This document shows positions 13,519 through 17,814 of a stretch of 64,000 nt of DNA, piece after piece. Made by a program: the position numbers and the translations under genes. This DNA is from Schleiferia thermophila (GTDB taxonomy: Bacteria > Bacteroidota > Bacteroidia > Flavobacteriales > Schleiferiaceae): positions 1-64,000 of the forward strand of contig NZ_QPJS01000004.1 in assembly GCF_003337435.1 (NCBI RefSeq), written 5' to 3'. How positions within the stretch are numbered: position 1 is the stretch's first letter; every line of letters begins with the position of its first letter. The notes beneath the pieces were generated by a model. The model was not told where the DNA came from. It searched no databases and saw only the letters and a list, made by a program, of their open reading frames with translations.

Positions 13519-16290
13519 ATGAGATATTGGTTTTTTGCCTCTTTTTTTAATATCTTAGTAATACTACATGCACAGCCTGAACTGCTCTCAGGACCAACTG
13601 CTCGTGATGCAGGTAAATCTGTAAAATCCAACTTGCTGTATTCTTTTTCGAATCAGGGGTTTAATTTATCAGGAGCCGGCGATACTGTCAGGATTTTTGA
13701 TTTTGGGAAGGTCCGAGAGACTCATCAGGAATTATCCGGTCGAATCGCGCATGCCGATTCTCTTCAATACAGTACTACATTCAGTTTACATGCAAATTCT
13801 GTAGCAGGCATTATTGCTTCTGCAGGGTTAGTGGATTCTTCTCGGGGAATTGCACACCAAGCCGTTATTGAGGTGCGCAATTGGCAAAAATACCTTTCTG
13901 GTCTTGAAATACAAGCTACAACAGGAACAGGTATATCTAATCACAGTCATGCTACTTTTCCCGGATGGGTGCAGTCTGGTTCCAAATGGTATTGGTATGG
14001 TACCGATACAATTTCACTTATTGAGGCATGGAGATTTGGGTCGTATACCAAAGTAGCCAAGAGCATTGATTCAGCTTTGTATTACAATCCGTATCATTTA
14101 GCTGTTTTTGCTGTCGGCAATCAAAGAGGAAACGGACCTCCTACGGGTGCACAGAAGTTTTATTTCAACAATTCACAAAATACCTGGGTGGATATTACCA
14201 ACCATCCAACCATAAATCCTCAGGCAGATGGGGGTACAAGCGGATTTGATTGCCTTAGTCCTGAGTCCGTGGCAAAAAATGTTTTGAGTATTGGATGTAT
14301 ATTCACAGATACAAATGGATATACGAATCCTTTGGAAAATTATCTGCATCCTTCCTCTTCATGGGGTCCTACTGATGATGGGCGTATTAAACCAGATCTA
14401 GTAGCTCCTGGTGTAGGTATAGTAGTTCCTGCCATTGTTTCGGATAGCAGTTATACCAATATATCACAGACTTCTGCAGCTACTGCAGTGGTGTCTGGGG
14501 TAGCAGCTCTGCTGCGTGGATATTATAAAAACATTTATGGTACTGCACCAAAATCTTCAACATTAAAGGGGCTTTTAATTCATACGGCTGATCGCTTTGG
14601 TAAGCCACCTGATTACAAAACCGGTTTTGGAGTTATCAACGCCTTCAAAGCAGCATCTTTTCTAAAAAAAGATTCTACCGCTGGAAAAGATTATTTCCTC
14701 AGAGAAGGTGTTTTGAATCAGGGTGATACTATTGTGATTCCAGTGGTGGTGTATCCGGTAGACTCTCTGACGGTCACGCTCGTATACACCGATTATTTTA
14801 CGGTTCCCCTGCCCATCAACAGTCAGATATTAAACAACAGAACTAAGAGGCTGGTAAACGACTTGGACCTAAGAGTAAAAAAGTCTGACCTGTCAACCAC
14901 GTATTTTCCATTTTGTGGTGATCCCGATAATCCCGGATCTCCGTTTACCTCCGGCGATAATTCCAAAGATAATGTTGAGCAGGTATGTACTCCCGCTAAT
15001 ATGACTGGAAATTATCTGATTGAAATAACTCATAAGGACAGTCTTCATGGTGGTATGCAGGAATTCACCCTGCTGATTTCAGGAGCGAAAATGCCTGTAA
15101 GATGGACAGCAACTACTTCCGGCAATTTTACAGTTGCTTCCAATTGGTCCACCGGCACCTTACCAACCACTGGTGACGCAGTGTATATTCCTCAAGGTAC
15201 AGGCGATACAATTTTGCTGGATACCATTGCACAGGTTTCTCTATTGGAGCTTTCAGAAAATACTGCGATTAAAATACTACCAGGTGCTTCATTAGAAGTT
15301 GACTACATCTCAGGAGGAGGAGTGCTGCTCGTCGATGCCTCTGCACAACATACCGCAGTCCTGAAGCACAACAACATCCATCCCTCTGTTCAAGTAGATT
15401 TCAATGTGTGGCTACAAGCAAAAAATAGCAATGAAGGAAGATGGCACTATCTGGGAGCACCATTTCAGATGCCTGTTAGTGCATTGCACCAAAGTTCAGG
15501 GACTCATTTCAACATCCATCAAGTTGGAGGGGGTATATATTTTTGGAATCCAGATACGGGTTTCTATCAAGCTCCGGCATCTCAAGCTCTGGTATTACAA
15601 CCGGGAAAAGGAGTTATGGCCTTTTTCGGTCAAAATAACTTTGGAACCTTTTTAATGAATTTACCTGGTAAAGCAAAAATAACCGGCTATTCCCCTATGG
15701 CTCAAAATTACAAGGTCTATTTGGGGTATACTGCTGTCCCAACTTACACTTCTTTTGCCTCCACTGTACTAGACGGCTGGAACCTCATAGCCAATCCGTT
15801 TACAACATTCTATGACTGGGAGGGTCAGGTTGTACCAGGCAATGCAGGTGCTATCTACCTGAGAAATGATGCCATAGGCCAATGGAGTGTTTATACCCAG
15901 GGCGATGTAGCCAATCCGCTCAGATATCTACCCCCTATGCAAGCTTTTTGGGTTAGAAATGCATCCGGACAGGCGGATTCTTTGACCTTCCTGAGTTCCA
16001 AACGCGTAAATCAGGCTGAACAAAGTTTCACAAAACCACAATTTAATGAAGGAAGGTTGGACTTATTTGTGTGGAAGCAGTCCGACTCTGCAAAGAATCA
16101 TGACAGATTGTTGTTGCGTCTGCGAAATGGGACAGGCCCTGGATATGACCCTTACTTTGATGGATTAAAACTTACCAATTCTTTCCCGCTGCCCGACCTG
16201 TATTTCTCTGCTGACACGCCTTTGGCAGTTAATTGTATGGAGCAAGTTCTGGTGCCTGATACTGTAGCATTGAAACTGCACATACGATAG
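13519..16290 (+). CDS. Secreted S8 (subtilisin-like) serine peptidase, stops early at TAG
   Basis: A 923-residue exported peptidase with signal peptide MRYWFFASFFNILVILHA. Subtilase elements are the Asp region VRIFDFGKV (Asp near 61), the His region HANSVAGIIAS (His91), the oxyanion Asn in AVFAVGNQRG (about 200) and the Ser region SQTSAATAVVSGVAALL (Ser about 319). The usual GTSMATP context is degenerate (QTSAATAVV), a variant known from Bacteroidota subtilases. A P-domain-like or Ig-like region follows. The frame ends at TAG (16288-16290) after VALKLHIR, but the same frame continues for 140 codons into a T9SS-type tail. The protein as annotated would lack its sorting domain and may be a recent pseudogene or readthrough product. 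Confidence 0.75.
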   Translation: MRYWFFASFFNILVILHAQPELLSGPTARDAGKSVKSNLLYSFSNQGFNLSGAGDTVRIFDFGKVRETHQELSGRIAHADSLQYSTTFSLHANSVAGIIASAGLVDSSRGIAHQAVIEVRNWQKYLSGLEIQATTGTGISNHSHATFPGWVQSGSKWYWYGTDTISLIEAWRFGSYTKVAKSIDSALYYNPYHLAVFAVGNQRGNGPPTGAQKFYFNNSQNTWVDITNHPTINPQADGGTSGFDCLSPESVAKNVLSIGCIFTDTNGYTNPLENYLHPSSSWGPTDDGRIKPDLVAPGVGIVVPAIVSDSSYTNISQTSAATAVVSGVAALLRGYYKNIYGTAPKSSTLKGLLIHTADRFGKPPDYKTGFGVINAFKAASFLKKDSTAGKDYFLREGVLNQGDTIVIPVVVYPVDSLTVTLVYTDYFTVPLPINSQILNNRTKRLVNDLDLRVKKSDLSTTYFPFCGDPDNPGSPFTSGDNSKDNVEQVCTPANMTGNYLIEITHKDSLHGGMQEFTLLISGAKMPVRWTATTSGNFTVASNWSTGTLPTTGDAVYIPQGTGDTILLDTIAQVSLLELSENTAIKILPGASLEVDYISGGGVLLVDASAQHTAVLKHNNIHPSVQVDFNVWLQAKNSNEGRWHYLGAPFQMPVSALHQSSGTHFNIHQVGGGIYFWNPDTGFYQAPASQALVLQPGKGVMAFFGQNNFGTFLMNLPGKAKITGYSPMAQNYKVYLGYTAVPTYTSFASTVLDGWNLIANPFTTFYDWEGQVVPGNAGAIYLRNDAIGQWSVYTQGDVANPLRYLPPMQAFWVRNASGQADSLTFLSSKRVNQAEQSFTKPQFNEGRLDLFVWKQSDSAKNHDRLLLRLRNGTGPGYDPYFDGLKLTNSFPLPDLYFSADTPLAVNCMEQVLVPDTVALKLHIR

Positions 16291-16713
16291 TCCGGAAACT
16301 ATTGCATTTCGGCAGCAGCTGATCAAATGCCTTTATTTTTTTCCCTTACAAGAGATTTTAAAAACTTTCAGATGCTCGGGATAAGTACGTATTGTGAACA
16401 TTTTTCGGAAGGTTTTTACAACCTTTATCTTTTGAAAAATTATTTACATCAACCGCTATGGTTCAGACATGAGTATTTCAATTGGTTTACAACCCATGGA
16501 AAAGTGGTTTTCGCAACAGTTAAACCCTGCCAGGTTCAGGTCAGCTTGTATGGTCTGTCTGGTTCGTTATATTTTCAAAAGCATTTGGTAATGGATGCCG
16601 GAATGCATGAATGTGAGCTTCCGCCCCTCAAACCAGGAATTTATCTTATTGGTGTTCAAACAGAAAACCAACCCATAGAAGTCCGGAAGGTTCCTTTTCT
16701 TTTTTGGAAATGA
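16291..16713 (+). pseudogene. In-frame 3' part of the S8 peptidase, beyond the TAG, with T9SS-like tail
   Basis: Reading on in the same frame from the base after the TAG gives an uninterrupted 140-codon stretch that starts SGNYCISAAADQMPLFF. It ends with a sorting-domain pattern (VQVSLYGLSGSLYFQK; LPPLKPGIYLIGVQTE). The first ATG in it is at 16327, with no promoter-like box, signal peptide or independent domain start. It is best read as the lost C-terminus of the upstream peptidase: a beta-sandwich strand region followed by a type A T9SS domain. Losing it would prevent T9SS recognition. Confidence 0.65.
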
Positions 16714-17814
16714 CGGAAAATTAATTATAAATTACGATGAACCTTGCTCGAAAAAATTAATGATTGCTGTATAAACCCGTTAAATTCCTTGAAATTTACA
16801 GTAACAGTAACTTAACTTACTCCATAGGGAAGTTTCAACATTGCAGGACAGATGGTTACAGCTTCCATTCAAAACTTCAAAGAACATGCTCCACTGTACC
16901 TTATTAGAAGTGTATTTATTCCCACGACTGATCTATTGAATTTCATTGCTACGACCTATACAAACTATCGTAAGTCCTGGATTGTGGGGCCAATATTTTA
17001 GAGGGTGGTGGATTGATTTGTACTTTTCTAACTCTGGATGGAAAAGAAGGACAAGTGGCAACTTCAATAGATTGTAACTTACCAAACAATTATTCAGGCA
17101 AACTTATTTGGATTGTAATCGCACTTATCATCGGTCTCAAAGCCGGATGGTTTTTTTAGCATAAAGTGTTTTTATTATATTTTTTGAATCCTCAAGTTTA
17201 GTAGCCGGTTCCTCTTTGTAATTTTAATCAATTTGAATCAAAGGGTTATGGGTCTTTCCTATGGGCATTGCAGCATTTTTACGCCCGGACTTCTGCTCCG
17301 GGGATTACTTGTATTAGCCCGATAAGCGAATATTTGGTTCGAGGCGTGTTGTTAAAGACAATGAATTTAAAAACTTAATCTTCTGCTCCACAATTGATTA
17401 AGGCTTGCGAGTATGACACTTCAAAAGACAAACGGAACAGCTATGCTTTACAAAAATGGAAAAATTAAGGGGAACAACCTAGATGAATGTAAGTATTCAA
17501 CTCAGTCATTTGGAAAAGGTGATAAATTCAGTAATCAATAAAGAATTTCGCAAAAAACCGCTCATTGTAGCAAAGTTCACTTCAAAAGGTCGTAAGGCAA
17601 TGCATGAACACGCAACTTGTAATTCAGAAATATTTAAAACCTCAAATGAGAGCATTACCTAAAACACTCTCTTAAATCGACACCGATTTTTTCTAAACAG
17701 AAACACTAATTAAAGAATTCCTGAGGCTACCAAGATTTGCCTATAATTGAAATTAATCAATGGATGAATGGAAGTAAAAAGGTTTCTGATACTGGTCAGA
17801 AACCTTTATCTCAT
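16714..17814 (+). other. 1.1 kb region without a clear gene; fragmentary open frames
   Basis: The longest open frames are short. A start-less 61-codon plus-strand frame at 16974-17159 ends in a membrane-like segment (GKLIWIVIALIIGLKAGWFF). A 42-codon frame lies at 17413-17541 and a 59-codon frame at 17483-17662. None is recognisable. The pattern suits decayed genes next to the interrupted peptidase, but it could also be plain intergenic DNA. Confidence 0.4.
17483..17662 (+). CDS. Possible small protein (59 residues)
   Basis: An ATG-started frame encodes a basic peptide (KEFRKKPLIVAKFTSKGRKA) with no signal peptide or known domain. It overlaps a 42-codon frame at 17413-17541 in a different phase. 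There is no supporting promoter or homology that I can recognise, so it is listed only so that it is not lost. Confidence 0.15.
   Translation: MNVSIQLSHLEKVINSVINKEFRKKPLIVAKFTSKGRKAMHEHATCNSEIFKTSNESIT

Follow-up and report, generated by a model that had tools for sequence, protein, structure and literature searches.

The S8 peptidase frame and its in-frame TAG

We analyzed a window of 64,000 nucleotides from Schleiferia thermophila (contig NZ_QPJS01000004.1, positions 1 to 64,000, of assembly GCF_003337435.1), in which a frame encoding an S8 peptidase meets a TAG codon before its natural end (Table 1). An earlier note on this DNA had described this arrangement, and the list of open reading frames confirmed it: the coding frame (13519-16287) runs into the TAG, giving an ORF of 923 aa, the same frame then stays open for another 140 codons up to a TGA, and the first ATG beyond the TAG lies at 16327, 12 codons on. 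The product was assigned to the S8 peptidases by a PF00082 match (E=7.5e-20, 71.8 bits for a cut-off of 21.8). Judged by eye from the sequence, the ORF starts with a stretch that resembles a Sec-type signal peptide. The whole frame has 1064 codons and a stop, compared with a stop-to-stop frame of 1062 codons in the ortholog described below, and the TAG falls around 13% before the natural end of the gene.

Table 1. Features of the interrupted gene in the window and of the other genes that look interrupted elsewhere in the genome (positions with C1, C3 or C7)
Feature	Position	Strand	Basis
S8 peptidase ORF up to the in-frame TAG, 923 aa	13519..16290	+	ORF listing, PF00082
Peptidase_S8 domain, residues 83-371	13765..14631	+	PF00082 profile match
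In-frame TAG; the intact ortholog and two paralogs have Gln (CAA) here	16288..16290	+	Alignments, codon read-out
Open extension of 140 codons, covering the second half of the last beta-rich module and a weak type A T9SS sorting tail	16291..16710	+	
Sorting-tail-like stretch	16504..16686	+	TIGR04183 match, profile positions 11-67 of 72
TGA, natural end of the ancestral frame	16711..16713	+	Total length agrees with ortholog
T9SS cargo gene sharing the C-terminal architecture of the S8 gene, TAG for a conserved Trp (GWNLIANP to G*NLISNP)	C3, ~239.9-243.3 kb	minus	
T9SS cargo gene, TGA and frameshift at a run of five G	C1, 492.4-495.7 kb		
T9SS cargo gene, frameshift	C1, ~1041 kb		
T9SS cargo gene, long frame running past an in-frame TAA	C1:1059-1062k (1059.8-1061.6 kb)		Frame continuity alone
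T9SS cargo gene, long frame running past an in-frame TAA	C7:2-4k (2.1-4.4 kb)		Frame continuity alone
Two-component-propeller histidine kinase split by TGA	C1:1030458-1033637		Ortholog in relative G006 uninterrupted

The open run beyond the TAG is unlikely to be due to chance: when that stretch was simulated 20,000 times with a first-order Markov model, 24 of the simulated sequences gave a run of 140 codons. Codon usage also singles out this frame, which scores +0.01 while the other five frames range from -0.11 to -0.21, and it is normal upstream of the TAG. We considered a separate downstream gene starting at the ATG at 16327 and rejected it, as the segment aligns with an internal and C-terminal part of the ortholog. 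A promoter scan upstream of this ATG found no sigma-70-like site, which is weak evidence because Bacteroidota promoters differ from that consensus. Downstream of the whole gene, positions 16714-17814 of the window form a stretch of around 1.1 kb where neither strand has an ORF of at least 60 aa, which is long for such a gene-dense window.

In an alignment of nine C-terminal sequences, the TAG stands between two conserved strand-like stretches, a VPLxLHI-like strand and GxYxxx, and the module that bears it extends some 50-60 residues further, up to the sorting tail. A two-sequence AlphaFold model, which is poor overall (mean pLDDT 37) and of which only the better part was used, locally, puts residue 235 of the fragment, the position of the TAG, in a turn between strands 229-233 and 237-245. 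As aligned, the TAG is inside a conserved beta-rich module and not at a domain boundary, so that the shorter product would stop halfway through a module and leave it broken.

The ortholog, the ancestral codon and the sorting tail

A search of 60 relatives returned a single clear ortholog, in Thermaurantimonas aggregans (Schleiferiaceae), and a scan of a named collection led to the same locus (NZ_BHZE01000024.1). The ortholog is 43% identical and open over 1062 aa with zero stops. It matches the window gene in its S8 domain, in the modules that follow, in the weak type A sorting tail and, roughly, in total length, but at residue 924, where the window gene is interrupted, it has Gln. In the reverse search, starting from the T. 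aggregans protein, the window gene was by far the best match; the two are thus a reciprocal-best pair. No closer copy was found among 396 genomes of the order, and a contig collection searched for closer relatives yielded only T. aggregans and distant S8 proteins.

The earlier note had taken the frames on both sides of the TAG to be one ancestral gene. The alignments support this view, since the reciprocal-best ortholog is continuous and has Gln at the TAG. It had also proposed CAG or TGG as the precursor of the stop. The Gln part of this proposal agrees with the ortholog and the two paralogs, all of which have CAA in this column, while nothing supports Trp. T. aggregans thus provides what a nonsense pseudogene calls for, an uninterrupted ortholog in which a sense codon stands in place of the stop. 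No alignable relative ends naturally at this point. The stop itself is shared by no relative and the one clear ortholog has Gln, so the conserved stop looked for in functional readthrough was not found.

The note had further described the end of the open frame as sorting-domain-like. The resemblance is real, yet it stays below threshold. The post-TAG segment, whose residues 72-131 match best, hits TIGR04183 with E=0.0016 and 18.4 bits for a cut-off of 23, and PF18962 with E=0.12 and 13.1 bits for a cut-off of 27. When the tails were scored side by side, that of the window gene reached 16.7 bits and that of the intact ortholog 15.3, whereas paralogs of the same architecture pass the sorting-domain cut-off with 24.1-37.1 bits. 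Neither the tail of the window gene nor that of the ortholog exceeds the curated cut-offs (TIGR04183/PF18962) used for type A T9SS cargo. The gene thus resembles this class in sequence, and we did not file it as a member on the profile. Because the tail of the intact ortholog is equally weak, the low score is a trait of the family and not a sign of decay, and we discarded a reading of decay based on it.

Beyond the TAG, no second stop and no frameshift is seen, and the tail retains two late sorting motifs, LKPGIYLIGV and EVRKV. We read these, from the alignment, as motifs D and E, the late motifs most clearly linked to secretion according to a review of T9SS cargo (PMC10202324). Their persistence would suit a young lesion and also a retained function. 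The pathway itself exists in this organism, since the genome encodes SprA, of the T9SS machinery; it also holds around 45 sorting tails that score over the threshold.

Explanations for the stop

We favor, with a probability of around three in four, an ordinary nonsense mutation at the ancestral Gln codon, which would have disrupted a gene for a putative T9SS-exported S8 peptidase. Translation would stop at the TAG, and the short product would retain the signal peptide and the protease domain, while its last beta-rich module would be cut in half and the C-terminal sorting domain lost. Such a protein would at best get as far as the periplasm, with no handover to the T9SS, and degradation would be its probable fate. 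The gene would then be a pseudogene, young or at strain level, alongside several other T9SS cargo genes of the genome that look interrupted; the mutation is probably fairly recent. The codon score of the tail, the lowest among the 50 T9SS C-termini scored, is a weak hint of relaxed selection. Decay after the TAG is not demonstrated, as the tail has no second lesion and its identity with the ortholog falls off gradually from residue 825 without a step at the stop. Among the three options that the earlier note had left side by side (nonsense mutation, assembly error, readthrough), this one is the best supported; other genes of the genome are interrupted likewise, by all three stops and by frameshifts. 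Belinky et al. (2021, PMC7918605) report that bacterial genes often carry in-frame stops, most of which do not last long, and assume that functional recoding is lacking in the vast majority. The window gene fits this pattern of short-lived stops, as it has a single in-frame stop, is otherwise coding-like and has an intact ortholog; unlike the stops surveyed there, this one is known from one genome.

The other explanations fare less well. An assembly or base-calling error, where the strain would have a sense codon and an intact gene, is unlikely. The genome is a draft of 23 contigs and one of its other lesions sits at a five-base homopolymer, but random errors should strike all genes alike, and 320 kb of unselected sequence contained no other clear nonsense case, which makes a generally error-rich assembly unlikely. 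The completeness of the genome is rated at 99.83% and its contamination at 0.01%. We regard as distinctly improbable a fixed, functional truncation, in which the 923-aa protein is kept as a periplasmic protease without a sorting tail and the tail is a relic. The S8 domain looks intact, codon usage before the TAG is normal, and the low codon score of the tail would fit here too. Against this, the cut falls inside a module and no relative that could be aligned ends there.

Functional readthrough, giving a short product that is retained and a long one that is secreted, was suggested in the earlier note and found no positive support; we consider it very improbable. It would account for the tail frame being still open and for the late motifs being kept, and some in-frame stops in bacterial genes have been argued to be tolerated (PMC7918605). 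The likeness to known cases of readthrough or amber recoding (suppressor tRNA, pyrrolysine, leaky stops) lies in the open, coding-like frame that continues beyond the in-frame TAG. Here, in contrast, the 36 tRNA matches in the genome include none with a CTA anticodon, with the reservation that a tRNA could be missing from a draft genome, and a pattern search for such a tRNA returned only other tRNAs and non-tRNA matches. RF1 is present, and TAG terminates 24 of the 180 long ORFs in a sample of 420 kb. Amber recoding was rejected on these grounds: no CTA tRNA was found, RF1 is there and TAG serves as an ordinary stop. The RNA downstream of the TAG has no unusual structure that might stimulate readthrough (z=-0.43), no relative has the same stop, and the TAG lies in mid-module. 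The other lesions of the genome span all stop types and frameshifts, and a phenomenon specific to TAG was rejected because they include TAA, TGA and frameshifts. Even more doubtful is a variant where the TAG is tolerated and partly read through: a small share of the protease would then gain the sorting tail and be brought to the surface, the remainder being kept in the periplasm. If this were true, the other broken cargo genes would point to a broader use of in-frame stops to throttle the expression of T9SS cargo. Under the favored nonsense mutation, the gene matters little when taken alone: it is a broken gene for a secreted protease, which gene callers would report as a shorter protein and a 128-aa orphan.

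Other interrupted genes in the genome

Our survey covered a 420 kb sample and the T9SS loci of the genome. Six further genes look interrupted by a TAG, TAA, TGA or frameshift, namely five T9SS cargo genes and one histidine kinase (Table 1). The cargo gene with a TAG in place of Trp has 800 codons ahead of the stop and 316 behind it. Two scans of the 320 kb of unselected sequence found no clear nonsense interruption besides the window gene. Hence, around six of the roughly 50 T9SS cargo genes appear interrupted, for no other clear case in the unselected sequence. This enrichment among cargo genes is a lead and not a proven statistic, because the sensitivity of the scans differs from that of the inspection of cargo genes and because the scans were for in-frame stops alone. 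Interruptions of this kind would fit a rapid turnover of surface cargo genes or a loss of cargo genes under culture conditions, and this wider pattern may deserve a short follow-up.

The remaining junctions in the 320 kb scans looked like ordinary neighboring genes, together with a glycine-rich repeated stretch. The latter is a glycine-rich frame with an internal TAG, present outside the window in two copies 1341 bases apart (C4:115011 and 116352), and is probably duplicated or repetitive sequence and not a broken gene.
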